Positions 14,831 to 57,522 of a stretch of DNA of 64,000 bases are shown in pieces. The notes beneath the pieces were generated by a model. It saw nothing but the letters and a program-made list of their open reading frames with translations. It made no database searches and was not told the origin of the DNA. The first letter of the stretch is position 1, and every line of letters begins with the position of its first letter. The stretch is taken from positions 1 through 64,000 of the forward strand of contig NZ_QLTS01000007.1 in NCBI RefSeq assembly GCF_003269275.1, in the 5' to 3' direction. This stretch comes from Phascolarctobacterium faecium DSM 14760 (GTDB lineage: Bacteria; Bacillota; Negativicutes; Acidaminococcales; Acidaminococcaceae). The translations under genes were made by a program, and so were the position numbers.

Positions 14831-14883
14831 TATTCAGACCCCTCCTCGATTTCATCAAATATCATAAAAGCACCTGTTAAATA

Positions 14884-15570: not shown

Positions 15571-15590
15571 CGATCCCCTTCCTTGCACAC

Positions 15591-18340: not shown

Positions 18341-18373
18341 GTATCTTGTGCACGTATAGAAAGGAAGACTCTT

Positions 18374-19985: not shown

Positions 19986-19987
19986 CC

Positions 19988-21155: not shown

Positions 21156-21167
21156 AAGGAGAACACC

Positions 21168-22073: not shown

Positions 22074-23095
22074 AAAGTTACTGCAAAAAATATCTGCTCT
22101 TTCTGATACTGCTTTTAACATTCAGCATCAGCGGCTGCGGCGAAGAAGAACAGATCAAAGTCACCGACACCCGCTTTTCTATGGATACCTTCGTCAAAAT
22201 AGACGCCTACAGCGATAAACCCGGAGAAGCCCGCTTGGCTATAGACGACGCGATGCAGACCTTCCAAAAAACAGCCCAGGTCACGGACCGTTTTAACGAC
22301 GGCGGCCCCGGTTCCTTATACGAAGCCAACAGCAAAGCTGCAGCGGCCCCGGTTACGCTGGCTCCACAGCTTGCCGGACTGCTGAACTATCTGGACCATC
22401 AACCGGATGCGCAGCTCGATATTGCCATCGCTCCTGTCGTTGACCTCTGGCAGCTGGCCCGCAGCCAGAACAGACTGCCCGCTCCGGAAAAACTACAGGA
22501 ATCCTTACGCCATACAGGTAAAGACAAATATCATTTTGACGCTGCCGCACAAACACTAAGCTACAATGATCCTGACGTCAAACTTGACCTGGGTTCTGTC
22601 GCTAAAGGTTATGCCGTTGACGCGGCGGCGGCAACGCTGAAAAAACATTCTGGTATTACCTGCGCCCTGATCAACGCCGGCGGTAATATTAAAGCAATTG
22701 GTAATAAACCCGGCAACATGCCCTGGCGCGTTGCCATCCAGCACCCCCGTGATCCTGAAGCCTTTTTAGGTACGGTGATGCTCCATGACGGCCAGTCCGC
22801 CGCAACTTCCGGAGATTATCAGCGGTACTACGAACTGAACGGCATTCGCTACCATCATATTTTAGATCCGCAAACAGGGCAGCCGTCCCGTCTGCATCAA
22901 TCTGTAACAGTAATCGCGCCATCGGCGCTGGACGCTGATTATCATTCTACACTGTTCTTTTTACTGCCAACAACGGAAATCAAAAACAGGCTTACTGCTG
23001 CCAAAGATTTGGCCGTAGTCATTGTCGAAAATGACGGCAGTATTTTCGTCTCCGAAAATCTGCAGCAAACCTGGCAGCCTGCCAAAGGAATATGA
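22070..23095 (+). CDS. apbE: FAD:protein FMN transferase, lipoprotein
   Basis: 341 residues with a lipoprotein signal (SISGC, Cys near residue 23). It transfers FMN from FAD onto a Thr of RnfD and RnfG at the extracytoplasmic face. ApbE motifs are the FSMDTFVKI strand, KLDLGSVAKGYAVD, NAGGNIKAIG and the C-terminal HHILDPQTGQPS. The ATGA overlap with rnfB indicates translational coupling, consistent with a dedicated maturation factor for this Rnf complex. Confidence 0.95.
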   Translation: MKSYCKKYLLFLILLLTFSISGCGEEEQIKVTDTRFSMDTFVKIDAYSDKPGEARLAIDDAMQTFQKTAQVTDRFNDGGPGSLYEANSKAAAAPVTLAPQLAGLLNYLDHQPDAQLDIAIAPVVDLWQLARSQNRLPAPEKLQESLRHTGKDKYHFDAAAQTLSYNDPDVKLDLGSVAKGYAVDAAAATLKKHSGITCALINAGGNIKAIGNKPGNMPWRVAIQHPRDPEAFLGTVMLHDGQSAATSGDYQRYYELNGIRYHHILDPQTGQPSRLHQSVTVIAPSALDADYHSTLFFLLPTTEIKNRLTAAKDLAVVIVENDGSIFVSENLQQTWQPAKGI

Positions 23096-23097
23096 TT

Positions 23098-23466
23098 ATG
23101 CGCCGTAATGATTATCTGCTTTGTTTAGTCATCATCACAGCAGCACTGTGCGGGTTCTGGTATTCAGACAGCACTGCTGCGGACAGCAATGCCGTTGTAC
23201 GCATCACCCGGCACCACGAGCTTATCCTGCAGCAAACACTGCGTGATTTTCCCGATCAGTATCTTTTGCCAACTGAACATGGCAGCCTGACGATCACCAA
23301 AGCAAACAGCAGCCTTCGCGTCAGCGAGGCCCCCTGCCCTGATAAGCTCTGCGAAAAGCAGGGCCCAATTACCGGCAGCGGTTCTATCGTCTGCATTCCC
23401 GAAGGCGTTATTATTGAAATAATAACTTCCAAAGAAGGAGACTCTCCTGATGCGCTCCTCCACTGA
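23098..23466 (+). CDS. NusG domain II-containing membrane-anchored protein
   Basis: 122 residues. An N-terminal hydrophobic helix precedes a small extracytoplasmic beta domain of the NusG-II type with a paired-Cys pattern: CPDKLCEKQGPI, then IVCIPEGVIIEI. This protein recurs beside apbE and Gx-type genes in Firmicutes respiratory loci, but its role is undefined. The ATG at 23098 is preferred over 23092 because AAAGGA then has normal spacing. It overlaps the next gene's start. Confidence 0.82.
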   Translation: MRRNDYLLCLVIITAALCGFWYSDSTAADSNAVVRITRHHELILQQTLRDFPDQYLLPTEHGSLTITKANSSLRVSEAPCPDKLCEKQGPITGSGSIVCIPEGVIIEIITSKEGDSPDALLH

Positions 23467-23968
23467 TACGACAACTAAAACCATGCTTGTCCTGGCACTG
23501 CTGGCAGCGCTGGCAGTTTTGCTGCGTCTGGGCGAAAACCTGCTGCCCCTGCCTGTCCAATTGGGCGCAATTCGTCCGGGACTGGCCAATACTATTACTA
23601 TTTTATGTTTATATTTGTTCGGTCTGCGCCTGACCGGGCTTTTTTTGACTGCCCGCGTTCTTCTGGTCGGACTTTTGAGCACAGGCCTTTTTACACCTGG
23701 TTTTCTTATCGGCCTTGGAGGAACGCTTTTAAGCCTGCTGCTGATGGAAGCAGGACGGCGCCGTCAGCTTTTTTCACCCTATGGTATCGGCATCCTGGGG
23801 GCTGCCGCACATAATACAGGTCAGATCCTGACTGCTTCCCTGATAATGCAAAGTTTCGCTTTATTCTCCCTGCTGCCGTTACTGCTCCTTTTATCATTGC
23901 CTTTCGGATTGCTGACCGGTGCTGTTGCCGCAAAAACATTACCGTTCCTGAAACAATATCTGCATTGA
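23450..23968 (+). CDS. Gx transporter family protein
   Basis: A 172-residue integral membrane protein with five or so helices. It matches the Gx-transporter family, often annotated as heptaprenyl diphosphate synthase component I (LPLPVQLGAIRPGLANTITI near residue 35, then a Gly-rich GFLIGLGGTLLSLL). The topology resembles ECF S components. It is the last gene of the rnf-apbE-NusG-II set, overlapping it by 17 bases. It may supply a cofactor precursor, but there is no direct evidence for substrate. Confidence 0.75.
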   Translation: MRSSTDTTTKTMLVLALLAALAVLLRLGENLLPLPVQLGAIRPGLANTITILCLYLFGLRLTGLFLTARVLLVGLLSTGLFTPGFLIGLGGTLLSLLLMEAGRRRQLFSPYGIGILGAAAHNTGQILTASLIMQSFALFSLLPLLLLLSLPFGLLTGAVAAKTLPFLKQYLH

Positions 23969-31130: not shown

Positions 31131-31694
31131 TTATTCACACCCCTTCCAAGGAATGAATTTCTCATAGTTAAGTCCAAATTGCATTAAAATTTTACCTAAT
31201 ATGTGATTTATCTGCTGTTCAACAGTAATGTCTTGATTATAAAAGGTTAACAGCGGCGGTATAATAACACAATTAAGTTCTGCTGCCTTAACTAGATTTT
31301 GCAGATGAATCTTGCCCAGAGGCATTTCTCTTGGAACTAATACTACCTTACGATGTTCTTTTAAACACACATCCGCACTCCGCAGCAGCAAATTTTCAGC
31401 ATAGCCATGGACGATACCGGCTAAAGTTTTCATGCTGCAAGGGACAATTACCATTCCATCTGTAGTAAATGATCCACTTGCAATAAGTGCTCCCAAGTTA
31501 TTATTGGCATAAGAAAAATCCGCTAACTTTAAAACCTCAGCAATATCCAGCGTAGTTTCCAATGCAAAATTTTTTATAGCACCTTCTGTTATTACCAAAT
31601 GCGTTTCTATATCAGTGTAACTTTTTAAAATTTGCAGCAACTTATAACCAAGCCAAACACCGCTGGCACCCGAAATACCTATCACCAGCCTCAT
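31131..31694 (-). CDS. ubiX: UbiX-family flavin prenyltransferase
   Basis: 187 residues. Family motifs are the N-terminal GISGASGVWLGYKLL (FMN-binding), PCSMKTLAGIVHGYAENLL in the middle, and RKVVLVPREMPLGKIHL with the dimethylallyl-phosphate-binding Arg. It makes prenylated FMN, the cofactor of UbiD decarboxylases. UbiD is encoded two genes upstream. It is separated by 13 bases from the transporter gene and by one base from the LpdD-like start, so it is part of a tight operon. Confidence 0.95.
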   Translation of the reverse strand: MRLVIGISGASGVWLGYKLLQILKSYTDIETHLVITEGAIKNFALETTLDIAEVLKLADFSYANNNLGALIASGSFTTDGMVIVPCSMKTLAGIVHGYAENLLLRSADVCLKEHRKVVLVPREMPLGKIHLQNLVKAAELNCVIIPPLLTFYNQDITVEQQINHILGKILMQFGLNYEKFIPWKGCE

Positions 31695-31707
31695 AATCTC
31701 ACTCTCC

Positions 31708-33090
31708 TCATTTATCCAATAAACCTATGTACAGCCAGTAAGGATATGTAACAACTGTCATAAATATAATACCTGCTACAACTCTGAACACCATAACTTT
31801 GATTAGATGCGTAAGCTTCAGATAACCAAATCCATATACTAGCATTAACGGTGCTATCTCATAAGGAAACAATGCCTGGTTAAATCCCATGATCATAGAA
31901 TATCCGCCTATAGTAGCGGAATATCCTAAATTACTGCATAAATTAGCTATAGGGATCATCAAAGTTGCAATTAATGCCAGTGGATTAAGTAAAAAATTAG
32001 CTAATATAGAAAAAATATAGATGCTCATTACCAGCTCGTAGCTGTTCATTTGTTCAAAATACGGTTGCACAAAATTTATTACACTTTCTGTAATGCCGAT
32101 ACTAGATGCAACAGCTCCAATAGTTACAGCTCCAGCTAAAAAAAATACTACTTTAAATTGTATTTTGCTGAAGTCATCTGATTTGAGCAGCCCTATCCCA
32201 GGAAAAAAGCCCAAGCACCCTATTCCCAACATAAGTACTCCTTCAGGCAATTTATGCCACGAAGAAAAAATCAATAATATCAGTAATGCCGTGATCAATG
32301 TCACAGTCTTTTTTTCATCGATAGTTATCTTTCCCAATTTCCTATATTCAATTTTTAAATATTCTTTATTTAAATTCAAATGCTGTGGTCTCAGAATATA
32401 AATTAAAGGTATTGATATCAGCATCCATAATATCCCAGGAATGAACATATCCTTAGCCCAAGCTAACCATGTTATTTTCACCCCCAGGTATTGCTCTAAA
32501 ATCCCCGCCGTTAGTATACTGTCAGTAGATGCTGTCATAAACGCCATTTTAGGAGACCATAAAGCGAAAAACACTACCAGCATCAAAGCTGATGCTGTCG
32601 CACTTTTTGCCTCAACCTTCAGCACCTTGCAAATACCTATGACAACTGGTACCAATAAAGCAACCTTAGCCATAATAGAAGGTATTAATGGCGTAAAAAT
32701 CGTGCATGTAAGTACTATCCCCCAAACAATCCCTTTTAAACTTCCTTTGGTCAAAAGCAGTGACTTATAAGCTATGCGTAATACCAAGCCAGATTTTACA
32801 ATCATCCCACCTATCATCAAACCTCCCAAAGTTATCCAGGGAGTACTGGTTGTCCATGCAGAAAATGCAGTTGCATAATTTGTTATATCAAACAGTATAT
32901 ATAGGCCCGGGAGCATTATTGCAACAATTTCCTCTGGCAGCAATTCAAACATCCACATCATAATCGCCCATAAAGTCACGGCTAAATATTTCTGAAAAAC
33001 ATTGCTGATAGAGCAGAAAAATGGCAACAAAACAACGATAAATGAACATATCCATTTTATTTTGTGCAGAGATAAATTATTCCACTTCAT
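31708..33090 (-). CDS. DASS/SLC13-family anion transporter
   Basis: A 460-residue membrane protein with about 12 helices. It has divalent-anion:Na+ symporter features: paired hairpin regions around TSTPWITLGGLMIGGMIVKSG and the repeat-related FFLAGAVTIGAVASSIGI, plus SNP-like NPLALIATLMIPIANL in the C-terminal half. Such carriers move dicarboxylates, sulfate or tartrate, with Na+ or by antiport. Its place between ubiD and ubiX suggests it moves the decarboxylation substrate or product. Codon use is AT-rich. Confidence 0.8.
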   Translation of the reverse strand: MKWNNLSLHKIKWICSFIVVLLPFFCSISNVFQKYLAVTLWAIMMWMFELLPEEIVAIMLPGLYILFDITNYATAFSAWTTSTPWITLGGLMIGGMIVKSGLVLRIAYKSLLLTKGSLKGIVWGIVLTCTIFTPLIPSIMAKVALLVPVVIGICKVLKVEAKSATASALMLVVFFALWSPKMAFMTASTDSILTAGILEQYLGVKITWLAWAKDMFIPGILWMLISIPLIYILRPQHLNLNKEYLKIEYRKLGKITIDEKKTVTLITALLILLIFSSWHKLPEGVLMLGIGCLGFFPGIGLLKSDDFSKIQFKVVFFLAGAVTIGAVASSIGITESVINFVQPYFEQMNSYELVMSIYIFSILANFLLNPLALIATLMIPIANLCSNLGYSATIGGYSMIMGFNQALFPYEIAPLMLVYGFGYLKLTHLIKVMVFRVVAGIIFMTVVTYPYWLYIGLLDK

Positions 33091-33111
33091 ACAGCACCTT
33101 CTTTCTAAACA

Positions 33112-33147
33112 GAACAGGTCAGCAGTAGAAATTGCTGCCGACCTGTT
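33112..33147. other. Intergenic hairpin between ubiD and the DASS transporter
   Basis: AACAGGTC and GACCTGTT flank a further GCAG/CTGC helix. In the direction of the operon (minus) the hairpin is followed by only a weak T run, so partial termination or mRNA processing is more likely than a full stop. On the plus strand the T5 tail is better, but no plus gene precedes it. Confidence 0.5.
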
Positions 33148-33158
33148 TTTAGCGTCAA

Positions 33159-34535
33159 TTATCTTTCACTACTTATTTCAGGAAAAGAATAATCTTCCCA
33201 TCCGGCAACTTCGGCAACAGTAGCATATAATTTACCAAAAGGCATTGTCGCATCTATACCAATGGTAGAGTTCGTTTTTTCCTGTAAACTATCGCCGTGT
33301 GAAGAAGGATCTAATGGTGCAGAAGGAACGTTATTTACCAAAATAACATCTCTTCCAGGGTCTACGCGAAATGACAAAGCCCATTCTACTTCAGCAGAAT
33401 CATGAACATTAATGTCAGGATCAACAACCACAATCCATTTAGGTCTTACATTACTGGACATTGCTGATAAAATCACGTGCCGAGCCTCATTGGCATATCT
33501 TTGCTTCATTGCGATTACAGCATACAACTGAACTCCACCAGATGGAGTTACCGCCACATCAGTAATAGTAGGGAATTGTTTTTTCATCGCATTATAGAAC
33601 GATGCTTCTAAAGGAATGTTTTTTAAAATATGGTTTTCCGTAACAGGCTTTCCTGTAAGAAGCACCTGAAAATAGGGATCTTTACGATGAGTTATAGCTT
33701 TTACCCTTGCGATAGGTCTTTCGCTGGCAGGCGTCATATATCCAGTATATTCACCCAAAGGACCCTCACTGACCTCAGTTTCAAAATCAATCTCCAATTC
33801 AAAAACAAATTCTGCTGTAGCAGGAACCTCAACGTCAATAGTCCTGCATTTTACCAGTTCTACCGGTTGTCCCCGGAGGGCCCCAGCTAAACTCCAATCA
33901 TCCGTAGTATCAGGGACATTCTGGACCTGACAGGTATATGCAAGGACAGGATCAGTCCCAACAACCAATGCCATCTCAAATTTTTTCATACCTAAAGCTT
34001 TTGCTTTATTACAGTTTTTCCCAAGTCTGTGAAACGGCTGCGCCATAAAGCCAAAATAATCTTTACCTATAGCTTGAAACCTGTAATGTCCAAGATCAGC
34101 AATTCCAGTTTCAGGATCTTTGGAAATACTGATACCAGCAGTTAAATATGGCCCTCCATCCAACTCAGAAAATTTCGGAATAGGAAATTTTCCAAGATCA
34201 ACATCTTCACCTTCAATAATAATCTCCTGACACGGAGCGCTTTTTACCATAACAGGTGCTATTGGTCTGTCAATTGTTTCTGCAAACCAGGAAAGTACCG
34301 TATTATTTTGTGCATTCAAAGCTCTCAATGCTTTTTTTCTATTACCAAAAACTCCTCCTACTGCTGGATAATCAGTACCGTTATTCCTGAAAATAATTAC
34401 CGGTCCATTATTTGCATAGCTTTTTTTCAAGGCCTTGCCCATTTCTAAATTAACGTCAACATACCGATCTACCTCAATCAAATCATTTTCCTTGCGGCAG
34501 CTCTCCAAAAAATCTCTTAAATCATAAAATGCCAT
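33159..34535 (-). CDS. ubiD: UbiD-family decarboxylase (gallate decarboxylase-like)
   Basis: 458 residues. Prenyl-FMN-dependent non-oxidative decarboxylase. Visible landmarks are DLGHYRFQAIGKDYFG, with the probable catalytic Arg of HYRFQ, and EGPLGEYTGY, holding the two active-site Glu five residues apart. The C-terminal TIGIDATMPF is also present. Together with UbiX and an LpdD-like protein it matches the LpdBCD set of tannin-derived gallate/protocatechuate decarboxylases, but the substrate is inferred from that resemblance only. The ATG at 34535 has AAAGGAG upstream; an in-frame TTG overlaps that site. It is 24 bases after the permease gene. Confidence 0.93.
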   Translation of the reverse strand: MAFYDLRDFLESCRKENDLIEVDRYVDVNLEMGKALKKSYANNGPVIIFRNNGTDYPAVGGVFGNRKKALRALNAQNNTVLSWFAETIDRPIAPVMVKSAPCQEIIIEGEDVDLGKFPIPKFSELDGGPYLTAGISISKDPETGIADLGHYRFQAIGKDYFGFMAQPFHRLGKNCNKAKALGMKKFEMALVVGTDPVLAYTCQVQNVPDTTDDWSLAGALRGQPVELVKCRTIDVEVPATAEFVFELEIDFETEVSEGPLGEYTGYMTPASERPIARVKAITHRKDPYFQVLLTGKPVTENHILKNIPLEASFYNAMKKQFPTITDVAVTPSGGVQLYAVIAMKQRYANEARHVILSAMSSNVRPKWIVVVDPDINVHDSAEVEWALSFRVDPGRDVILVNNVPSAPLDPSSHGDSLQEKTNSTIGIDATMPFGKLYATVAEVAGWEDYSFPEISSER

Positions 34536-34559
34536 TATAAACTCAACTCCTTTCAATCA

Positions 34560-36056
34560 TCAAATAATAAACAGGGACATTACACAAATAATAAACAACT
34601 GTATTAATTGCCATTTAAAAGCCAGATTAAACATATCGCTATCTCTATTGGTAATATTCGCTAAAGAAGACGTAAATTGCAGCAATGATGGCTTCAACGG
34701 ATTTGCCGGCCCCATCGTAATCATCGCAGCCAGTCCGACTAAAACAGAAGCATTCACATGCAACATTTCAGAAGATGCCATCTGCATTTTCGAAAACATC
34801 GCACAAGCCGGTATGCCCTGTCCAAAAGCCATCCCTGCCAAAAAACCCAATCCAGACAACAACAGACCATAAACCGAACTGCCCCATTGCGTCATATGGC
34901 GTGCAAGTAATGTAATCTGTCCTGTATCCAGCATAAGATTTACCATTGCCCCTCCTAAAAATAAGGTGATCAACGAGGGCAGTCCTCTTTTAGAAGCAAT
35001 AATAAAATCTGCTGTAAAGGTACTGGTTTTCTTTATCGCAAAAACATAACACAGTAAAGCCGTAATCAAAATATATGTACCAGGAGTATTGATCAAATTA
35101 ATACTGACAGGTGCATATCCCCATAACGACAATTTAAATGCAGTTTTAGCCATAATAGCTTTCAACGGATAAGAAAATATTATTACGATAATAGAACCAA
35201 CGATCAATGGTAAGAAAGCTTTAAACGCTAACTTTTTAGAAATAATCTCCTTATCATTGGAAGTATTGCTGTAAGTCGCACCTTTTTTACTGTACAGCCA
35301 TAAAAATAAAAAACTTAATGTTGCCGCAGCAATCAAAGTCAAAATATATAATCGAGGAAATATCTGAGTAAACAGAATAACAGCAGACATATTTGCTGCT
35401 ATAGTTAAACAGGCTATATTGCGGTTATCACTGTTTTTTAAATCAAAATCAAGAATCTTAAAAAAACCTACTACAGAAACAATTATCATCGGCAGTGTCA
35501 ATAAACCCATAGTCTGGACGATTCCTTCAATAGGTAATTTTGTAACGCTGCTGGCAATTGTAGCAGCAATAAACAAACTTACGAACGCTATACTCCAGGA
35601 AAAATAAACCAAATAGCCAACAGCCGCACGAAAACCGTCAATACCCTGTCTGACCAGTCCTGGTATAGTAACAGGGTAAGTGGCAAACCCATTGAAGGCT
35701 CCTAAATAACCTCCTACTACTGAACATAATGTCACAGCTTTTCCCGTTTTACTTGGCAAAACCTGATCTAAGGTATTCAACAGCATATTCAAAGCACCTG
35801 TACTTCTAAAACATTGTCCAAAAATCTGTCCCGTCCACAAAACAAGAAATCCATTCCAAATGGTTATATTCCCCCATACAGACGCGGTCAACGTTTTTTG
35901 TACTGGCATATGAAAAAATACAACAACTGCAAAGATTTCCAAAAGCCATACATAAAGGCTCAAACGTAAAGCATTCATCTTAAAAACTAAAAAGCCCAGC
36001 AGTAAAATAACAAATGGTAGTAATGCTACTATAGTTTGCAAAAACTCATTATCCAT
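34560..36056 (-). CDS. Lactate-permease-family transporter
   Basis: A 498-residue membrane protein with about 13 helices resembling the LctP/LldP family. Seen are GYLGAFNGFATYPVTIPGLV in the first half, the long GFLAGMAFGQGIPACAMFSKM near the C terminus and GPANPLKPSLLQFTSS. The family imports lactate, glycolate or related hydroxy-acids with H+. It is the first gene of the decarboxylase operon, with GGAAGGAGG before the ATG. With a second, DASS-type carrier in the same operon, one may import and the other export the product. Confidence 0.72.
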   Translation of the reverse strand: MDNEFLQTIVALLPFVILLLGFLVFKMNALRLSLYVWLLEIFAVVVFFHMPVQKTLTASVWGNITIWNGFLVLWTGQIFGQCFRSTGALNMLLNTLDQVLPSKTGKAVTLCSVVGGYLGAFNGFATYPVTIPGLVRQGIDGFRAAVGYLVYFSWSIAFVSLFIAATIASSVTKLPIEGIVQTMGLLTLPMIIVSVVGFFKILDFDLKNSDNRNIACLTIAANMSAVILFTQIFPRLYILTLIAAATLSFLFLWLYSKKGATYSNTSNDKEIISKKLAFKAFLPLIVGSIIVIIFSYPLKAIMAKTAFKLSLWGYAPVSINLINTPGTYILITALLCYVFAIKKTSTFTADFIIASKRGLPSLITLFLGGAMVNLMLDTGQITLLARHMTQWGSSVYGLLLSGLGFLAGMAFGQGIPACAMFSKMQMASSEMLHVNASVLVGLAAMITMGPANPLKPSLLQFTSSLANITNRDSDMFNLAFKWQLIQLFIICVMSLFII

Positions 36057-36109
36057 ATAAAGAACCTCCTTCCATTTTGCTTATATTAACTGTCCTCCTT
36101 TCTGATTTC

Positions 36110-36177
36110 AGTATAATCAATTGTTTATAAAAATTCTGTCATTAACATTACATACTGTTTGTAGCCTATGCTACAAA
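36110..36177 (-). promoter_or_regulatory. Putative promoter of the decarboxylase operon with upstream palindromic operator
   Basis: The minus-strand -10 candidate TATACT is at 36110-36115. The perfect dyad TTTGTAGC-CTAT-GCTACAAA is at 36158-36177. Its centre lies roughly 62-64 bases upstream of the expected transcription start, a normal class I activator distance for CRP/FNR proteins. No good -35 is seen, as expected for an activated promoter. Confidence 0.6.
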
Positions 36178-36259
36178 TTTATTATCTGCTCCAAAACATA
36201 TAGAATTATATTTTTCTCAATGTTATAGTTAATATAAGGACAGAAAGGAGGCGATTCTT

Positions 36260-36862
36260 ATGAAAAAATTCCAATCTACCTGTCAAAATTGTACCAATAA
36301 GTTTTGTACAAAGCTTTCTACCGAAGTCAGAGAGGAAATATTCAAAAACAGAATATGGTTTAATTTAAATGCCAAAGAAGAACAACTCTTTTATTTTAAT
36401 AATAAACAGATTCTTATCATCGAATCAGGCAGTTTCATGACAATTCGTCAAAATAATCAAGGTAAACAAATTGGTGTTGATATTTTAAGGCCCGGCGATT
36501 TGTTAGGAATTTTAAACTTTAACGCAGAATCTCCTCAAGATCATATTTTAATCCTGCCATTGACAGATGTTTCAGGCTGTCTGGTTTCAAAAACTATTTT
36601 TGATACTTTAATCCAAAAACATTTGTCTCTCAACATAATCATTATCCATCATTTATCTTCCCGTTTTTACCGTATCATCAATCATTTGACCAATCTCGTT
36701 TTTGATACCAGTAAAGAACGTATTGAATATTCGTTAAAACTGGCGCACCACAACTTAGGCAATTTTTATCTGACACACGAACAGATTGCTTTATTATCAG
36801 GTTTAAACAGGGTCACCGTTTCCAAAACTATTAAAGATGTCAGCTATGACTTTGATAAATGA
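36260..36862 (+). CDS. CRP/FNR-family regulator with FNR-like cysteines, short C terminus
   Basis: 200 residues. A cupin-like sensor domain (GVDILRPGDLLGILNF) and a helix-turn-helix (LTHEQIALLSGLNRVTVSKTI) are clear. Cys8, Cys11 and Cys16 at the N terminus plus Cys107 mimic the four-Cys layout of FNR, so an oxygen-labile 4Fe-4S cluster is plausible. The protein ends eight residues after the recognition helix, lacking most of the usual beta wing. AAAGGAGG precedes the ATG. It is divergent from the permease-led operon, with the palindrome between, so it is the probable regulator of that operon. Confidence 0.85.
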   Translation: MKKFQSTCQNCTNKFCTKLSTEVREEIFKNRIWFNLNAKEEQLFYFNNKQILIIESGSFMTIRQNNQGKQIGVDILRPGDLLGILNFNAESPQDHILILPLTDVSGCLVSKTIFDTLIQKHLSLNIIIIHHLSSRFYRIINHLTNLVFDTSKERIEYSLKLAHHNLGNFYLTHEQIALLSGLNRVTVSKTIKDVSYDFDK

Positions 36863-37061: not shown

Positions 37062-37092
37062 GCCGCAGAACTTAGTTCTGCGGCTTTTTTAT
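37062..37092 (+). terminator. Terminator of the tRNA gene
   Basis: GCCGCAGAAC pairs with GTTCTGCGGC around a three-base loop, followed by TTTTTT. Confidence 0.95.
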
Positions 37093-37161: not shown

Positions 37162-37656
37162 TCACTGATATCTGGAATTTACGATCTTCAAATTTATTAC
37201 AGAATAAAGCTCGTCCTGATTCCAAATTTTTATTTTACCTTCCTGCACATTTCTTCTATAAATATTTTTTGAAGGTACAGCGATTTCTAAATTTATTGGC
37301 ACTGTATTTTTACTGCGTTTTACTAAAACATCTTCAGATTTTAACTTTTTCCAAATCCCTTTTTTAGAGCCTTGTGAAATTATAGCATCCACGCCTTCTG
37401 TTTCACAACGCAGTTTCAAGGTATCGTCCTCCGTCTGACAACGCAAAGCAACGGAAAAAACATTCGGCTCCAGCCAGTATTTAAGCAGACCCATTTTCCC
37501 TACGTCAACAGTATATTCAACACTTTTATTTTTATTCAAAACTATTTTTTTAAAGCTCCTGTCGCCTTCATTCTGCATTTTGAAACTGCTGAGTAAGATC
37601 ATTACCATAACAGCAGCCAACACCAGAAGTATTTTTTTCCCAAGCTGTTTATTCAT
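37162..37656 (-). CDS. Membrane-anchored or exported protein of the cobalamin operon, function unknown
   Basis: 164 residues. One N-terminal hydrophobic helix (KKILLVLAAVMVMILLSSF), without a clear cleavage site, precedes an extracytoplasmic domain rich in alternating beta-type residues. Two Cys sit in RCQTEDDTLKLRCETEG. I do not recognise the family. It overlaps the preceding small Cys-rich gene by eight bases, with GGCGGG upstream, and is the last gene of the riboswitch-controlled operon. Confidence 0.7.
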   Translation of the reverse strand: MNKQLGKKILLVLAAVMVMILLSSFKMQNEGDRSFKKIVLNKNKSVEYTVDVGKMGLLKYWLEPNVFSVALRCQTEDDTLKLRCETEGVDAIISQGSKKGIWKKLKSEDVLVKRSKNTVPINLEIAVPSKNIYRRNVQEGKIKIWNQDELYSVINLKIVNSRYQ

Positions 37657-37846
37657 ACCTGGCCCGCCTTTTTTCAGCTATCTTCTTAGAAAAAATTTTA
37701 ACAGATAAAATAACGACAGCCGCCGCTCCCGGCAAACAGCTTAACTGGCAGCTGCCACAAATACCGGTGCAGCCAAAGGTGCTGCCCCAAGAAGAAATCG
37801 GTATACCCATAGCTGCACAAAAAGTAATTACTTTATTCCTCATCAT
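37649..37846 (-). CDS. Small Cys-rich membrane protein
   Basis: 65 residues from ATG 37846, with GGGAGG just upstream inside the end of the NapH-like gene. A Cys cluster (C26, C30, C33, C37; spacing C-x3-C-x2-C-x3-C within GCTGICGSCQLSC) lies directly before a single membrane helix (PGAAAVVILSVKIF) and a basic tail. This could hold an Fe-S cluster or metal. Overlaps on both sides (14 bases with the NapH-like gene, 8 with the next) argue that it is translated. No known family was recognised. Confidence 0.7.
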   Translation of the reverse strand: MMRNKVITFCAAMGIPISSWGSTFGCTGICGSCQLSCLPGAAAVVILSVKIFSKKIAEKRRARYE

Positions 37847-38657
37847 CTTTCCTCCCGTATCTGATCGCCTTTTCCGGACATTTACTGATACAGACCCCAC
37901 ACAGGATACAATTATGTACGCAATTCACAGCTTTCCGCTCTTCTATCACCATCGCTTCCATAGGACAGGCAAGGCTGCAGCTTTTACAGCCAATACATTT
38001 TTGGCGGTCTATAATCAACCGATAAACGAATGGCAGCCTGCTGCTGAAAGAATACAACAAATTCTGTACCGCTCCTACAGGGCACAAAAAATTGCAAAAT
38101 CCGCGGCCGCCTTTAGTAAAGATACCAAACAGACCTGCCCACAAAAACAACGTCAGAATCATACTGGAGCTCAAAGAAATAAAATACCCAAAAACGAAAT
38201 AGTTAACAAACAAATCAAATAGAAAGAAATTGCAATATGCACATGCCAGCAGACTATCAAAAAATGGCAATATCACAAACCCGGCCAGCATGCCATAACG
38301 AAACGGAACGATCTCGGTATAAGTACGCCAGCTTATCTGCAGCCTTGATGGTATGACTTTGCTTAAATACTCGGTAAAAGCTCCGGCAGGACATAATCTG
38401 CCGCAAAATACAGGACCAAAAAACAAAGTAACTATCAGCAAGATCACGATACAAGCAATAAAAGGAAGCGACATCAGCAGCAACTTTCCATCCAGTAAAT
38501 GCTCTGTCTGAATGCGAAAACAAAGGCTATGAATGGTCAGCTGCTGCCACTTGCCCGTAAAAGCAAAAAATATTATTTTTTGAAATAGCGCAAAAGGAGC
38601 ATAGAATAAAATAAAACCTAAAAAATACCCCAAAAGCCGCTGATATTTAAACCCCAT
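37833..38657 (-). CDS. NapH-like polyferredoxin membrane protein
   Basis: 274 residues. Four or so membrane helices carry two CxxxCP motifs on the cytoplasmic side (GPVFCGRLCPAGA and GFCNFLCPVGA), as in NapH, NosR and CcoG relatives. Two 4Fe-4S ferredoxin motifs follow at the C terminus (CIGCKSCSLACP and CILCGVCISKCP). The protein should move electrons between cytoplasmic donors and the membrane or periplasm. No nitrate or N2O reductase genes are near. It follows the TonB receptor by 61 bases in a cobalamin-riboswitch operon, so a role in corrinoid handling is an inference. The ATG at 38657 has GTGGAG upstream. Confidence 0.85.
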   Translation of the reverse strand: MGFKYQRLLGYFLGFILFYAPFALFQKIIFFAFTGKWQQLTIHSLCFRIQTEHLLDGKLLLMSLPFIACIVILLIVTLFFGPVFCGRLCPAGAFTEYLSKVIPSRLQISWRTYTEIVPFRYGMLAGFVILPFFDSLLACAYCNFFLFDLFVNYFVFGYFISLSSSMILTLFLWAGLFGIFTKGGRGFCNFLCPVGAVQNLLYSFSSRLPFVYRLIIDRQKCIGCKSCSLACPMEAMVIEERKAVNCVHNCILCGVCISKCPEKAIRYGRKDDEE

Positions 38658-38681
38658 TTTTATCTCCACTTCCATGAATTT

Positions 38682-38708
38682 TCAGGACAGGGAAAATCCC
38701 TGCCCTGA
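38682..38708. other. Intercistronic hairpin after the TonB receptor
   Basis: TCAGGACAGGGA pairs with TCCCTGCCCTGA with one G-U pair. In the operon direction it is not followed by a T run, so it probably does not end transcription. It may stabilise the receptor mRNA or dampen expression of the downstream genes. Confidence 0.5.
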
Positions 38709-38718
38709 TTTTATTTAC

Positions 38719-40962
38719 TTAAAAGCTATAACGCAGGCCTACGTTATATGTCCTGCCGGAAGTTGCTTCGCTGGCATAAAATTCTTTATCAAACAGGTTG
38801 TTAATACCGAATTGTAAAATCGTATCTTTAGCAATTTCATAATTAAAGGCAGTATTAACGATAAAATACGCGTCTTCCGCCCCATACTCTCCTGTCACAT
38901 CATCAGGAGCCTGACGAGCGCTCACATACTGACAATCCAGTATAGCGTTGAACTTATCCTTATTATAATTGACGCCGGCATGCAGCAGATGTTTAGGAAT
39001 GCCATAGTCTGCGCTGTCAGCATCTTTCAGGTTAGTTCCCGCCACCGCATTTTGTTTCACTTTCCCCTGCTGCCATGCATAATTAAAATATGTGCCCCAG
39101 TTATCGTTAAATTTATGGTCGACCGTAAATTCTACACCGCGGCGTTTTTCCGTACCGTAGTTTTCATATTTTTTATATTCTGCTGTTGTTGTTCCAGGCT
39201 GATAATGGGTCGTATAAAGGATTTTATCATCTGTTTTCACCTGATATAAAGAGATCCCCAGATTAGTCTGCCGCGACAATTTCTTCTTCATGCCAATCTC
39301 AAAAGTATTTGAGGTCTCCGGATCAAGATCAGGATTAGCCACTACACCGCCCATACTGCCACCGCCGTCACGATAGACCTGATACAAAGGCGGCGGATTA
39401 AAAGAATGTCCATAAGAAACATAGTAATTAGTCTTTTCATCAGCTTTATAATCAAATGCTATTTTCGGGCTGAATTCACTATAACTGACTTCATCATAGT
39501 CCAAAGAACGTGTTAAAGCACCGGTATTTTTATCATAATATCTGCTTTTACCGTCCATTTTTGTAAAATGATCATAACGTACGCCTAAATACATCGTCAT
39601 CGGATCGCTGATCTGATATTCATCCTGCACAAATAAAGCTATGTTCCGCGCTTTACCGCCATGGTTTTCATAAACACCGTTATCGCCAAGTCCGCTGATA
39701 ACAGAATCATGATCGCGCCAGTTGCTAAGATATTTACGCAGCTGATCAAAGCTCTCCTGTTTAAAACTGCCTCCTACTAGAATAGAATGTTTGCCTACAT
39801 TATCCCACGCTTTTTGTACATCAAAATTATAGGTTTCACCGGGATAGAAAGAATCAGTACCGGCACCGTTCCAGTCTATAGATTTTGGACTGCTGGAACT
39901 GCTATAGCCATTACTTTTCATATCCAGGTACCCAAAGTTGGCACTGAATTTATTTTTATTGTCATTATATGACAATGTATGTAAATCGGATTCTTTCCGC
40001 CCGTCATAACCAAGATATGTTCCAATGCTTGGCTTCACTATCTGTCCATTACCAACATCAACACTGCCACTAAATACGGGCTTACCGTCTTTATAAATTG
40101 TCGTCCACGGATTTTGGTAGCGATACTCACTTTCCGTATGGATAAAAGTATATTTTAAAGATCTGTCTTCATCAAAATCATATTTCACATTAGCGGAAAT
40201 GTTTTCATTTTCCCAAACCTTTTCTCCGCGTCCGCCTAAAACATATTTGCCGTTACTGAGCTGCGGCAATTCGTGGTCAGGCTTAATCCCTCCACTGCCT
40301 TTGGAAGCGCTACCAGTATAATAATAACCCCTATATCCATCTGATTTTCTGTTTTCATAACCTACGCCGAAAGATAATTTTTTATTCACTCTTGCATCTG
40401 CGTATAAAGCTTTTTTCCAGGTATTATTACTGCCATAGCTGACTACAGCATTTACACTGGCTCCTTTTTTTTCAGGATTATCCTTAGTGATAATATTGAC
40501 AACCGCGCCCACAGCCCTACCGCCATATAAAGAAGAGCCTGCTCCCCTTACAACTTCAATTCTGGCTATTTTTTCCACAGGTACCATTTCCCATTCCATA
40601 CCGTTATTATAAGTAGTATTCATCGGAAGCCCATCCAGCAAAACCAAAATATCACTGGAGCTGAAGCCCCTGATCTGAATCCCTCCCTGTGCTGCTTGGT
40701 TCATATAGACGCCCGGCAGAGTCTGCAGAGCTTCAGGTACAGAATTAATATTTCTTTCTTCTATATCCTGTGAGGTGACAACACTGACGCTGGAAGGTAC
40801 CTCCTGTAGTTCTTTCATAGTTCTGGTTGCTGTAACAACCATCTGATCCAGATTAAATTGCTGCAGCCCCTCTTCGGCGTATACTACTGTGCCCCCCCAA
40901 ATGACATTGCCAGTTATAAGTACTGTCATCAGTATACTTTTACCCATACCCTTTTTCAACAT
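38719..40962 (-). CDS. TonB-dependent outer-membrane receptor, probable cobalamin/corrinoid transporter
   Basis: 747 residues. A signal peptide (ending VVYAEE) precedes a TonB-box-like MVVTATRT and a plug domain (VPEALQTLPGVYMNQ, IQIRGFSS, VVRGAGSSLYGG). A 22-strand-type barrel ends in LRYSF. The sequence alone would fit the FepA/CirA/BtuB class. The cobalamin riboswitch in its leader makes cobalamin or another corrinoid the best substrate guess. The ATG at 40962 has GGGAG upstream. No BtuCDF genes are in the window. First gene of a four-gene operon. Confidence 0.93.
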   Translation of the reverse strand: MLKKGMGKSILMTVLITGNVIWGGTVVYAEEGLQQFNLDQMVVTATRTMKELQEVPSSVSVVTSQDIEERNINSVPEALQTLPGVYMNQAAQGGIQIRGFSSSDILVLLDGLPMNTTYNNGMEWEMVPVEKIARIEVVRGAGSSLYGGRAVGAVVNIITKDNPEKKGASVNAVVSYGSNNTWKKALYADARVNKKLSFGVGYENRKSDGYRGYYYTGSASKGSGGIKPDHELPQLSNGKYVLGGRGEKVWENENISANVKYDFDEDRSLKYTFIHTESEYRYQNPWTTIYKDGKPVFSGSVDVGNGQIVKPSIGTYLGYDGRKESDLHTLSYNDNKNKFSANFGYLDMKSNGYSSSSSPKSIDWNGAGTDSFYPGETYNFDVQKAWDNVGKHSILVGGSFKQESFDQLRKYLSNWRDHDSVISGLGDNGVYENHGGKARNIALFVQDEYQISDPMTMYLGVRYDHFTKMDGKSRYYDKNTGALTRSLDYDEVSYSEFSPKIAFDYKADEKTNYYVSYGHSFNPPPLYQVYRDGGGSMGGVVANPDLDPETSNTFEIGMKKKLSRQTNLGISLYQVKTDDKILYTTHYQPGTTTAEYKKYENYGTEKRRGVEFTVDHKFNDNWGTYFNYAWQQGKVKQNAVAGTNLKDADSADYGIPKHLLHAGVNYNKDKFNAILDCQYVSARQAPDDVTGEYGAEDAYFIVNTAFNYEIAKDTILQFGINNLFDKEFYASEATSGRTYNVGLRYSF

Positions 40963-41052
40963 ACTCAACTCCCTTTCCTATTTTTTGTATATTACTAAAA
41001 TATTTTATGCATTAACCTAATAGATATATGCATAATAACTTTTATTAGAATC

Positions 41053-41087
41053 AGAAAATACCCTGTGCATAAGACGCACAGGGTATT
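41053..41087 (-). terminator. Riboswitch expression-platform terminator
   Basis: On the minus strand AATACCCTGTGC pairs with GCACAGGGTATT, followed by TTTCT. It lies between the aptamer and the receptor start, as expected for transcriptional control by the riboswitch. Confidence 0.85.
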
Positions 41088-41140
41088 AAATAGCTAGATA
41101 AAAGCTGTTCCATTACCAAACTGTCTCACGCAGCAGTAAA

Positions 41141-41302
41141 TTAATCATCAGGCAGTTCTTCTGACTCAAGTTCATCGCTCCTCCAAGCCTTCCCGGATAA
41201 CTCCAGTGACATAAATATGGATTTGCTCACTTTTACAGCGACGGGATCGTGTGGGCTTTACACCCAGCTTCTCTATTAAGACCTGCGTCACCTGATAACA
41301 TC
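41141..41302 (-). ncRNA. Cobalamin riboswitch aptamer
   Basis: On the minus strand the conserved cobalamin elements occur in order. They are a GGGTGTAAAGCCC box, CCCGTCGCTGT, GTCACTGG, CCGGGAAGGC, GCGATGA and GAGTCAGA. A closing helix pairs TATCAGG with CCTGATG. The B12 box and the GGGAAGG-GATGA core are diagnostic. A terminator hairpin follows, so binding of cobalamin should switch off the TonB receptor operon. Confidence 0.93.
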
Positions 41303-41428
41303 ATTATTCACTTTTTATATTTTATGATATTATATTCTATTTTATATTAATAATTATATGTTATAATATCATATATGATATATTACTATGTATAGCTACT
41401 AGACAGTCAATAGGGAGATAATTATTTT

Positions 41429-42259
41429 ATGAAAGAACCAATTGATAATTATTTTACAACAGGTGAGTTAGCCAAGCTTTGCAAAATACCTCGAAAAACT
41501 TTGCTTTATTACGACAGTTTAGGTCTTATAACGCCTGAAGTTATTGAAGAAAATGGTTATCGTTATTACAAACGCACTCAATTATTTGCACTAGAATTGA
41601 TTTTGACGATGCGTAAACTGGATATTCCTTTAGCAGAAATCAAAACTTATTTATCTAACAAATCCTATACTAATTACAGAAATATTATGTCTGATCGTGA
41701 AATATTTCTTGAAAAATTACTCAAAAAGATAATTAAAACAAAAAATGAACTGCATCATTCCCTCCTTATTCTTAACCAATTGGAAAACATTAAATTTAAT
41801 GATGTACTAACAGTTCGAACAGACAATGAATTTTTATATTTAAGTAAACCAGTCTCTCCCAAAATGAACTTTAAAGACAGAACAAAAATATCCGCCAGTC
41901 TGTTTATAAATCTTGCTGAACATATTCCCCTTAACAATCATACTTTTGGTTATGTTGTAGATAAAAATTCACTTTTAGATCAAAAAAAACCTCGTCATAT
42001 CAAATATTATTTCTGTCCTGTTTTCACTAAAACCGATTATCCGAAATGTTCCATAAAATCAAAAGGAACTTACCTTACCCTTTATTTCAAAGGTATCTAC
42101 ATGAACAATTATGACAAGTATATCAACACTCTGTCAGAATACTGCAAGCATAATATGCTCGTTCCTATATCCGATATTTATATCACATCAATAAAAAACT
42201 TTTGGCTTACTGATGAAATCAGCGAATATATTTACAAAATAGAAGTACAAATAAAATAA
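41429..42259 (+). CDS. MerR-family regulator with GyrI-like effector domain
   Basis: 276 residues. The N-terminal MerR helix-turn-helix (FTTGELAKLCKIPRKTLLYYDSLGLITP) is followed by a coiled helix (about 90-125). A C-terminal half of about 150 residues looks like a BmrR/GyrI-type small-molecule-binding domain. The gene is notably AT-rich compared with its flanks, suggesting a different origin. It is divergent from the riboswitch operon, but its target is unknown since no transporter lies next to it on the same strand. GGGAG lies upstream of the ATG. Confidence 0.85.
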   Translation: MKEPIDNYFTTGELAKLCKIPRKTLLYYDSLGLITPEVIEENGYRYYKRTQLFALELILTMRKLDIPLAEIKTYLSNKSYTNYRNIMSDREIFLEKLLKKIIKTKNELHHSLLILNQLENIKFNDVLTVRTDNEFLYLSKPVSPKMNFKDRTKISASLFINLAEHIPLNNHTFGYVVDKNSLLDQKKPRHIKYYFCPVFTKTDYPKCSIKSKGTYLTLYFKGIYMNNYDKYINTLSEYCKHNMLVPISDIYITSIKNFWLTDEISEYIYKIEVQIK

Positions 42260-54367: not shown

Positions 54368-55708
54368 TTATGCGGCCCTTAAATAATACATATTCGGCAT
54401 TTTCAATTTTTCGCCGATTTTATTAAAGCGCAGAACAAGTTTTCCTGTACTACCGCTTTGCCCGCCAATACTAATAAGACCTGCAGACTGCATCTGTCCA
54501 TAAAAGGTAGCTGTCACATTTCCGCTGACCAGCATTTGCATATTACCTGCCGAAGAAAGGAAACAGCCGCCGTCAAGCTGTTTATCTGCATTGATAAAAG
54601 GGTCTGACAAACTCAAATTTTTATTGGCAATAAAAAGTATCCTGCTGTTGTCTACCGACTTGATCGAATTTACAGCTATCGACCCACCGGAAATAAAGCT
54701 TACCTGCCCACCGCCCTTGATCGTAATATTCTTTAAAACCACATTATCATAATCTTTGATAGTACCATAGTCACAAATAATAAATTCTAAAGTTTTTCCT
54801 TTAGGAACAGTGATTTCTACGTTATCCATAGTTAAAAAATTTTTATACAACATATAGCCAATACCCAGCTGTTCACCGATCAATAAAACAGTATTATTGG
54901 CAACACTTATCTTCGTTCCCGAAAAGCTGGCTTTAGCGGCCCAATATTGCCCGTTGGTAATATTCCAGTTACTTAAAGGCCTGTCTTCAGTCGCACCTGT
55001 AGACTGAAGCTCCGGATAAGTAGCTTTTTCAAAAACTTCCGGCGATGCAGCACTTTTATATTTAGGCTCTGTCACAAACTCCTTATTGATTACCTGCCCG
55101 CCCACTGTATAGTCACCAAAATATCCACTGTAATATACCTTATTATTGGGATCATAATCTACATCGTTATTAATAATCAATGCTCCGCTTGAAGTAATAA
55201 AGCTGTCATTTATATAGGCGTCTGGAGGCTGCTCCGGTTCTTCTCCGCCTCCGGTACCGCCATTATCACCTAACGTATGGACTTTACGGATAACCTTGCG
55301 AATCCCCTGGCAAGCTCCTACTGAGGTTATTTGATAAGCAGCGCTCTCTTCAGGAGTATAGTCAGATGCCAGATCAATATTATTTTCAGTAATTCCCACA
55401 GCGTACCAGATGCCATTCTGGTCAGCTTTACCGCCGTCTATACTTAAATGTCCAAAGCTGCCGCTGTCACTGCCTTGTATATAGTTTTCCGGTGTCAGCC
55501 ACGTCCAGTTGCTGTTTTTATTATCTAAAGCTGCAACAGCTTTTTTATATCCGGCTTCAGCAGCATACCATGCCTGCTGCTCCCGATAATCTGATGAGGC
55601 AGCCGTTTTTTCTATTGTCATCATCGGCAGCCAGGCAATGGCCACTACCATCAAAAACAACAGCATTACTATAGCTATGACAGTTACCGAACCACGTTGT
55701 TTCTGCAC
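54368..55708 (-). CDS. PilX-like minor pilin paralogue 1
   Basis: 446 residues from GTG 55708, chosen because GAGGTG lies six bases upstream and because the paralogues share this spacing. The N terminus is QRGSVTVIAIVMLLFLMVVA, a prepilin-type helix without Glu5, as in PilX/GspK minor pilins. It is followed by the conserved EKTAASSDYREQQAWYAAEAGYKKA. The large C-terminal half is rich in beta-type repeats and Gly (for example KVYYSGYFGDYTVGG) and differs from the other two copies. It is the outermost copy. A terminator-like hairpin separates it from paralogue 2, so it may have its own promoter. Confidence 0.8.
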   Translation of the reverse strand: MQKQRGSVTVIAIVMLLFLMVVAIAWLPMMTIEKTAASSDYREQQAWYAAEAGYKKAVAALDNKNSNWTWLTPENYIQGSDSGSFGHLSIDGGKADQNGIWYAVGITENNIDLASDYTPEESAAYQITSVGACQGIRKVIRKVHTLGDNGGTGGGEEPEQPPDAYINDSFITSSGALIINNDVDYDPNNKVYYSGYFGDYTVGGQVINKEFVTEPKYKSAASPEVFEKATYPELQSTGATEDRPLSNWNITNGQYWAAKASFSGTKISVANNTVLLIGEQLGIGYMLYKNFLTMDNVEITVPKGKTLEFIICDYGTIKDYDNVVLKNITIKGGGQVSFISGGSIAVNSIKSVDNSRILFIANKNLSLSDPFINADKQLDGGCFLSSAGNMQMLVSGNVTATFYGQMQSAGLISIGGQSGSTGKLVLRFNKIGEKLKMPNMYYLRAA

Positions 55709-55962
55709 ACATTTCACCTCATCGCTCTTTTTGTATATGTTATAAATTAAAACCTATAATATAAATTATTTGATATTTTTTAATTTATTATATCATTTGT
55801 ATTATAAAATCACAATATATTGTACCTATTTTAATAAATATTTATTTAGGCTATATTTAATAATCTTTTATTAAACAAATATAAAACCTGTCAATACCAT
55901 ACAAAAAAAACAGTACCGCTGCTATATAATAGCAGCGGTACTGTTTACTTCTTTATGCGTTT
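55709..55962 (-). repeat. Duplicated AT-rich intergenic unit, copy 1
   Basis: The region upstream of paralogue 1 is visibly similar to 57271-57522 upstream of paralogue 2. Shared features are a TTATATCATTT-x-ATTATAAAAT core, the AAAAAAAACAGTA hairpin and TTTATGCGTT downstream. Together with the genes it marks tandem duplication of a unit of about 1.55 kb. Confidence 0.7.
55902..55950 (-). terminator. Terminator of PilX-like paralogue 2
   Basis: On the minus strand AACAGTACCGCTGCTA pairs with TAGCAGCGGTACTGTT, followed by T8. Confidence 0.85.
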
Positions 55963-57270
55963 TTATTTCATACCTTTGGGAACGGTAAAACCAGGAGCTT
56001 TGAGCACACTATCATTAAACTGTATCAGACCACTTGTCTTAAAATTGCCCCTGCACTGAATCTGACCTTGAAATGAAGCACTCTCAACTATCGTAATATC
56101 TTTATCAGAAGATAAAAATCCTCCACCCGGATTATTTTTATAACTCCAAATACTGCTGCATATTTTCATATCACCATTAGACATGAACATCGTCAAGCCA
56201 TTATAGGCAACGGTCTCAGTCCCCATGCCAAACTGAAAATCGCCGGCAAAAAACATTCGTACGTTGCCTGTAATCGTTCCAGTTAAAACTACTGGTTTAA
56301 GCGCGCTGAAAATAAAGGTTACAGGCAAATCACTTTCAGGACCGTTGATTTGATTTAATTGTATTCCATTATTGTAATTTTGATTGTCTATAAAAATTAT
56401 TCTACCGGCAGAGTTCCCTGCATCTACAACTTTAACTCTTTTTATATTATAAGGATCACTCTCATCTACTAAATTAGACAAATCCCAATAATAATCTGTA
56501 TTCTTTGCTGTCTTAATTGTAGAAGGCCATGTCATGTCAGGCATAGGAGGCATTTTGGGATATTTACTTATATCAAAAATTCTCTCCGGAAGTCTTGTTT
56601 TTAGAGTCGGCCTGTTAACACTGTCAGTCCATTCATTCGTAAATGAATTATTATTTTTCACGTTGTAAAAACCAGATCCATATAATTTTCCCAGAAACCT
56701 AGTATCTATATCGTCAATATTAAAATCCTTTTGGTCTTGTACTACTGTGACCGTACCTCCGGCCTGTACCAAGCCAGGTAATTCCAAAACTTCTTCTCCC
56801 ACGCTGTCACCACCGCCAGACCCTCCGTCATCACCAAAAATATAGGTTTTTCGCATAACTTTGCGTATACCCTGGCAGGAACCGACTGATGTAATTATAT
56901 AGTTGGCCTTATCGCCTGGTATAGTAACATCCACTTCATTGTCATCTTTGATCTCCGTAATCGCAGTTGCATACCAGACTCCCTGCTTATCTGCTTTTTG
57001 GTTATCAAGGCTATTTAAATAAAAATCCCCAGACTTTATTTCTGCGATTTTACTTAACCAATTATTCCATTCACTACTCCCATCATTAAGAGCAGCTATT
57101 GCACGCTTATATCCGGCTTCAGCAGCATACCACGCCTGCTGCTCCCGATAATCTGATGAGGCAGCCGTTTTTTCCATTGTCATCATCGGCAGCCAGGCTA
57201 TCGCTATAATCATTAAAAACAACAGCATTACTACAGCTATAACAGTTACCGAACCACGTTGTTTCTGCAC
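55963..57270 (-). CDS. PilX-like minor pilin paralogue 2
   Basis: 435 residues from GTG 57270 with GAGGTG upstream. It shares with the other copies the N-terminal RGSVTVIAVVMLLFLMIIAIAW helix, the EKTAASSDYREQQAWYAAEAGYKRA segment, a conserved VGSCQGIRKVMRKTYIFGDDGG and a Gly-rich linker. The central passenger region is different. The C-terminal LKAPGFTVPKGMK is almost identical to that of paralogue 3, showing recent common origin. Its role is probably a pilus tip or a diversified surface adhesin; no sequence proves binding. Confidence 0.8.
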   Translation of the reverse strand: MQKQRGSVTVIAVVMLLFLMIIAIAWLPMMTMEKTAASSDYREQQAWYAAEAGYKRAIAALNDGSSEWNNWLSKIAEIKSGDFYLNSLDNQKADKQGVWYATAITEIKDDNEVDVTIPGDKANYIITSVGSCQGIRKVMRKTYIFGDDGGSGGGDSVGEEVLELPGLVQAGGTVTVVQDQKDFNIDDIDTRFLGKLYGSGFYNVKNNNSFTNEWTDSVNRPTLKTRLPERIFDISKYPKMPPMPDMTWPSTIKTAKNTDYYWDLSNLVDESDPYNIKRVKVVDAGNSAGRIIFIDNQNYNNGIQLNQINGPESDLPVTFIFSALKPVVLTGTITGNVRMFFAGDFQFGMGTETVAYNGLTMFMSNGDMKICSSIWSYKNNPGGGFLSSDKDITIVESASFQGQIQCRGNFKTSGLIQFNDSVLKAPGFTVPKGMK

Positions 57271-57522
57271 AAAATTCACCTCGCCGCCTTTTGATATAAA
57301 TTATAAATCTAGGTTAAAAGCATATATTATTTGTTATTCTTTAATTATTATATCATTTACATTATAAAATAACAATATATCAAGTTTTTTGTAAACATTT
57401 GTTTAATCTATACTACGCCAATTCTTCATTAAACTAATATATATAACGCTACTAAAATTCAAAAAAAACAGTATCGCTGCTATTTATATAGCGGCGATAC
57501 TGTTTACCTCTTTATGCGTTAT
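57271..57522 (-). repeat. Duplicated AT-rich intergenic unit, copy 2
   Basis: Similar in order and motif to 55709-55962: an ATATCATTTACATTATAAAATAA-type core and an AAAAAAAACAGTATCGC hairpin. No gene was found in it. Confidence 0.7.
57461..57508 (-). terminator. Terminator of PilX-like paralogue 3
   Basis: On the minus strand AACAGTATCGCCGC pairs with GCAGCGATACTGTT, followed by T8. Confidence 0.85.

Follow-up and report, generated by a model that had tools for sequence, protein, structure and literature searches.

A cobalamin-riboswitch operon of Phascolarctobacterium faecium that joins a TonB-dependent receptor to a putative three-protein membrane redox module

Layout and control of the receptor operon

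The window, a 64,000-nucleotide stretch of contig NZ_QLTS01000007.1 of P. faecium DSM 14760, contains an operon of four minus-strand genes headed by a cobalamin riboswitch and a terminator. The genes encode a TonB-dependent receptor (38719–40968), a four-TM NapH-like polyferredoxin of 280 aa, here called NapHL (37833–38675), a 65-aa membrane peptide, CysP (37652–37846), and a protein of 164 aa, Sec164 (37162–37656). All three genes that the initial annotation had placed behind the receptor – for a NapH-like protein, a 65-residue Cys-rich peptide and a secreted protein – were found in that order and strand. They are indeed overlapping or close: NapHL and CysP overlap by 14 nt, CysP and Sec164 by 5 nt, and the gap between the receptor and NapHL is 43 nt. 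A hairpin in this gap (38688–38702) was called terminator-like for the plus strand only; on the coding strand it lacks a T-tract. Transcription is thus not predicted to stop behind the receptor, and the first terminator-like hairpin downstream of the gap lies at the operon end (37062–37084), past Sec164.

The aptamer matches the RF00174 covariance model at full length, with 98.5 bits against a gathering score of 31.5 and 189 of 189 model positions covered. A cobalamin aptamer had been claimed at 41141–41302 of the minus strand; a full one is present, though its true span (41134–41310) is slightly longer. The expression-platform terminator described with it is also there, as a 14-pair hairpin downstream of the aptamer (41087–41057, minus strand) that is present in the RNA fold as well and is followed directly on its 3' side by the T-rich tail TTCTGATTCT.

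A candidate MerR-type promoter lies at 41380–41410 on the minus strand (TTGACT, a 19-bp spacer and TAATAT). Spacers of 19 bp are typical of MerR-activated promoters, and a MerR-family regulator (PF13411) is encoded divergently at 41429–42259 on the plus strand. Among the genomes compared, which are given G numbers (G000 is that of the window), G036 has an identical −35 element and 19-bp spacer upstream of its receptor; the promoter start TTGACTGTCTAG is common to both, and the region upstream of a paralogue on contig C11 of the window's genome is similar. Homologues of the MerR gene are divergent from the receptors in G036 and on contig C11. The G036 receptor has no riboswitch upstream, yet it has the MerR homologue alongside. 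The receptor operon of the window may thus be under double control, by riboswitch and MerR regulator.

The receptor is 749 aa long when read from a TTG start, and an ATG at 40962 has a good ribosome site before it. Its plug (PF07715) and beta-barrel (PF00593) domains both score above cut-off. Like the BtuB–BtuFCD system, the operon has a TonB-dependent receptor behind a cobalamin riboswitch, but the receptor falls far below the cut-off of the BtuB model TIGR01779 (174.2 bits, cut-off 599.7). Its best models are heme/hemoglobin receptors, which at 231.9 bits score higher than BtuB and are also below cut-off. We know of no BtuB system with membrane redox genes. A survey of 300 Negativicutes genomes found relatives of the receptor in 55, many of them riboswitch-led. 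A cobalamin riboswitch lies directly upstream in 8 of the 20 receptor-relative loci tested; on this count the receptor family is riboswitch-led in at least eight further genomes.

The operon belongs, with many others, to a large B12 regulon: 15 cobalamin riboswitches were counted in the window's genome. Behind them lie genes for several TonB-dependent receptors, cobU/cobT-like and cbi-like genes, an ExbB–ExbD–TonB set, a cluster with NifH/D/K-like and CobN-like genes, methylmalonyl-CoA mutase and a dipeptide/nickel-type ABC transporter (genes that have no family call were named by reading the sequence). The ExbB–ExbD–TonB genes, at 50323–52607 of contig C11 (L015), have their own riboswitch, and similar arrangements occur in G192 and G108. 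Contig C11 also carries, at 14387–23808 (L013), a riboswitch followed by genes for a NifH-like protein, two nitrogenase component-1-like proteins, a substrate-binding protein, a permease and a 1238-aa CobN-like chelatase; this is a nitrogenase-like reductase within the B12 regulon. On contig C2 (L004, 1841–3171), a riboswitch-led receptor is split into two overlapping frames and is possibly broken.

The riboswitch on contig C5 (44993–45168, L016) precedes the genes for both subunits of methylmalonyl-CoA mutase. Repression by B12 would be odd for an enzyme that depends on it, and an ON switch is worth considering there. That riboswitch bears on one idea of the initial annotation, that the redox genes supply electrons to a B12-dependent enzyme, since the mutase is such an enzyme in the same genome. 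However, no B12-dependent enzyme is encoded in any operon seen with the three genes, and methylmalonyl-CoA mutase does not, to our knowledge, use a membrane polyferredoxin. We consider this role very improbable.

Predicted anatomy of NapHL, CysP and Sec164

NapHL matches PF12801 (Fer4_5) with 61.2 bits against a cut-off of 22, and also carries PF00037. Its model (pLDDT 83) has long helices and a ferredoxin fold, which fits the NapH-like polyferredoxin superfamily, whose members combine Fer4_5 and several TM helices with a C-terminal 2[4Fe-4S] domain; in a fold search the ferredoxin domain alone found matches, and NapHL gave none with E below 0.001. The NapH/MauN profile TIGR02163 is matched by 21 of 22 NapHL relatives with E below 1e-12, but the score of NapHL itself (66.6 bits) is far below the curated cut-off of 213.05. 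In an alignment of 22 NapHLs the cytoplasmic CxxxC, the ferredoxin cysteines and the residues H49, C52, C145 and C148 are invariant. By charge bias, the N-terminus, the ferredoxin domain and the CxxxCP loop would be cytoplasmic, and the two loops that carry H49/C52 and C145/C148 would lie on the outer side of the membrane, in agreement with the helices of the model; these four residues are therefore predicted to face the periplasm. An in-frame TGA in the NapHL of genus g6 was considered as a selenocysteine codon, but the TGA proved to be the stop codon at the end of intact frames.

CysP has no known family in Pfam. Its Cys-rich segment, GCTGICGSCQLSC, contains a GCxGxCGxC-x3-C motif that is invariant in the alignment. 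The C-terminal hydrophobic stretch ends in many Lys and Arg residues, so the cysteines probably lie at the periplasmic face of NapHL.

Sec164 has an N-terminal membrane helix and an Ig-like beta-sandwich (model pLDDT 87.7), and no significant Pfam family. The best fold match is the N-terminal domain of PAD2 (Z 9.0, rmsd 2.9 over 102 residues); an Ig-like sandwich is a common arrangement, and this match was not taken to name a function. The earlier description as a secreted Cys-containing protein is right in that the protein is exported and has two cysteines, C73 and C84, but these are not kept across the Sec164 family, which makes a role as a cluster or disulfide carrier unlikely.

NapH-like proteins have been described as modular extracytosolic electron carriers that work with different partners (PMC8238504). 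NapHL shares the multi-TM PF12801 polyferredoxin with the NapH, PceC and NosR systems. It differs from NapH-like systems in its low score against the NapH/MauN model and in its operon, in which neither an FMN_bind domain nor ApbE, the marks of flavinylated NapH-like systems, was found; CysP and Sec164 are not part of the NapH, PceC and NosR systems. A second likeness is to the cupric reductase CcoG/FixG, in which a membrane 4Fe-4S polyferredoxin is joined to an Ig-like periplasmic domain (PMC7558416) and Cu(II) reduction has been described as cytoplasmic. In contrast, the Ig-like domain of the operon is a separate protein, Sec164, and a Cys-rich peptide is added. The FixG_C domain (PF11614) matched one member of the Sec164 family, weakly (E 0.11).

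Conservation of the trio and the slot behind the receptor

NapHL, CysP and Sec164 form a conserved trio. Of the family's 59 genomes, 21 have NapHL, and a profile search found CysP in precisely these 21; Sec164, also by profile search, is found in the branch nearest the window and in some few families besides. Where the contigs are long enough to show it, the three genes are neighbours.

The initial annotation had raised the co-occurrence of receptor, NapH-like protein and Cys-rich peptide behind B12 riboswitches as a point to survey, and the combination does recur in other genomes. Besides that of the window, three genomes have a riboswitch-led trio, two of them from other families. G074, of another family, has a riboswitch (112.6 bits), receptor, NapHL, CysP and Sec164 in the same order as the window. 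In G010, the riboswitch is ahead of NapHL, CysP, Sec164 and then the receptor. In G148, which belongs to a third family, a tightly packed run on one strand starts with a riboswitch that has a terminator of its own; the run encodes a 133-aa protein, a receptor, a BtuFCD-like set, a CGGC protein, a second receptor, NapHL, CysP and Sec164. A riboswitch lies at most 700 nt upstream of 3 of 14 trio loci, against 0.018 expected (P about 6e-7, under a null that uses the riboswitch count of each genome and treats loci as independent), so the recurrence of this layout is beyond chance. In the NapHL tree the riboswitch-led members are spread over several branches; those of the window and G148 share a supported group of four rows.

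No riboswitch precedes the trio in G025, G036, G024, G026, G038, G051, G075 or the f9 and f21 genomes. The idea that riboswitches had been missed by the threshold was rejected, as none was found before the trio in G025, G036, G051, G038 or G021 even at E up to 1. A redox module is unusual for a cobalamin operon, as first noted, but the trio is not exclusive to B12 operons. In G036 (L060, 497–7911), a cassette of riboswitch, receptor and ABC transporter is flanked by one complete and one partial Sec164 copy, and a group II intron is weakly matched close by; this may be a recent duplication or insertion.

The gene that follows the receptor is NapHL in the window's genome and in G148, G036, G025, G074 and the frame-broken G117. 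The trio is found with this receptor family in seven genomes, including G010 with its trio ahead of the receptor. In other members of the same receptor family, the slot is taken by a PepSY_TM gene – in the riboswitch-led loci of G108, G084, G067 and G214, and in G150 and G192 (assigned by PF03929, except G214, which was assigned by similarity to the others). None of the loci compared has PepSY_TM and NapHL together at one receptor, and none of the four operon proteins of the window matches PF03929. The receptor tree requires at least two changes between the PepSY_TM and NapHL states, and G084 (PepSY_TM) and G074 (NapHL) share one supported four-row group. The trio and PepSY_TM are thus exchanged behind the same receptor family.

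Characterised PepSY_TM proteins are periplasmic ferrisiderophore reductases (PMC13038864). Like the trio, PepSY_TM reductases (FoxB, FpvG, FsrB and HiuB, and CrpH for copper) are encoded directly behind a TonB-dependent receptor, and both are membrane electron carriers expected to act on an imported metal complex. PepSY_TM reductases are heme-based, whereas the trio is predicted to be Fe-S-based and is unrelated in sequence. It is chiefly because unrelated membrane electron carriers occupy the slot of one receptor family that the trio is read here as a reductase of the receptor's cargo.

That cargo could be something other than a corrinoid, such as an Fe(III) chelate, heme or another metal complex, with B12 control reflecting a shared need for cobalt or tetrapyrroles. 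The heme/hemoglobin models that score best against the receptor, the ferrisiderophores used by known PepSY_TM reductases and the trios without riboswitches are all consistent with this. Cobalamin riboswitches, however, stand repeatedly before this receptor family in several bacterial families, the run in G148 includes a BtuFCD-like set, and in G032 the trio adjoins cobalt-transport-like and cobalamin-biosynthesis-like genes. A different cargo therefore appears rather unlikely, and a corrinoid is the likely one. The trio of G051 adjoins transport genes similar to those of G032.

Other neighbours of the trio suggest other partners. Nitrogenase-like pairs adjoin it in G024, G026 and three f9 genomes, and the nitrogenase-like and CobN-like genes on contig C11 are under a B12 riboswitch; electrons might therefore flow inward or laterally, to a nitrogenase-like reductase in the cytoplasm whose substrates would be corrinoids or related compounds that it modifies. 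Against this direction of flow, the operons of the window, G074, G148 and G010 include no nitrogenase-like gene, the export of Sec164 and the predicted periplasmic position of the invariant Cys and His residues speak for an outward direction, and the same slot can be taken by PepSY_TM. Such a role seems improbable, as does a role in general envelope redox maintenance (such as the supply of an exported flavodoxin or of thiol pathways), which a B12 operon would have taken over with no action on the cargo. The latter is suggested by a more distant NapHL–CysP pair in other genera, whose neighbours are TatC and an exported flavodoxin, with neither Sec164 nor a riboswitch present; it is opposed by the company of one receptor family in those seven genomes and by the confinement of Sec164 to this branch and a few other families. 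Taken with the cobalamin-biosynthesis and sulfur genes beside some trios, the nitrogenase-like neighbours mark the trio as an electron-transfer module that can be put to several uses, and not as a set dedicated to B12.

The f9 loci (L141, L142 and L143) place the trio among nitrogenase-like pairs and sulfur genes (O-acetylhomoserine sulfhydrylase), and resemble methylthio-alkane reductase clusters. Their Sec164 proteins have a His-rich C-terminal tail.

A possible role in corrinoid uptake

As an uptake-and-reduce operon, the four genes would act on an imported corrinoid or cobalt chelate; we put this at close to an even chance. When B12 is low, the riboswitch would not terminate transcription, and the divergent MerR regulator would probably provide a second control. 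The receptor would bring the corrinoid or cobalt chelate into the periplasm. By way of its ferredoxin domain and two CxxxCP sites, NapHL may accept electrons from cytoplasmic ferredoxin, or from quinol, and pass them across the membrane to a periplasmic-face site formed by H49, C52, C145 and C148 with the four CysP cysteines. The membrane-tethered Ig-like domain of Sec164 might hold or present the cargo while its metal, most likely Co(III), is reduced at that site, and the reduction could release the metal or a ligand, which would then pass through an ABC transporter of the Btu type.

The initial annotation had suggested reduction or dealkylation of the imported corrinoid. A redox module that reduces imported cargo is supported by the conserved co-occurrence and by the exchange with PepSY_TM, with the corrinoid itself no more than the likely cargo; no specific evidence for dealkylation was seen. 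The more specific proposal, of an Fe-S-based three-component cobalt reductase at the periplasmic face, which includes the unnamed CysP and Sec164 families and is exchanged for the heme-based PepSY_TM, is offered tentatively.

B12 uptake is taught as a receptor and an ABC transporter, with reduction only inside the cell, and we know of no need for periplasmic reduction in uptake by BtuB–BtuFCD of E. coli. A receptor with a partner reductase is a known kind of system for iron and has been proposed for copper. Searches of the open literature yielded no description of the Fe-S trio or its B12-controlled use, nor of NapH-like or PepSY genes in B12 riboswitch operons. If the proposal is true, it adds an envelope redox step to B12 uptake in gut Negativicutes, helps to explain which corrinoid or cobalt sources these propionate producers can use, and assigns a function to each of the small, unnamed CysP and Sec164 families. 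Owing to the exchange with PepSY_TM, the reductase idea can be tested directly in culturable genera.

Three other regions of the window were noted. An Rnf complex with an apbE gene directly behind it lies at 16979–23095 (apbE at 22070–23095, outside the trio operon) and is a possible source of low-potential electrons for NapHL. The region 31131–36862 encodes a UbiX-like flavoprotein, a DASS-type transporter, a UbiD decarboxylase and a lactate-permease-like transporter – possibly a decarboxylation operon – with a CRP-like regulator upstream on the opposite strand. At 54368–58758 there are three tandem paralogues which, by reading, have prepilin-like N-termini and divergent C-terminal halves.
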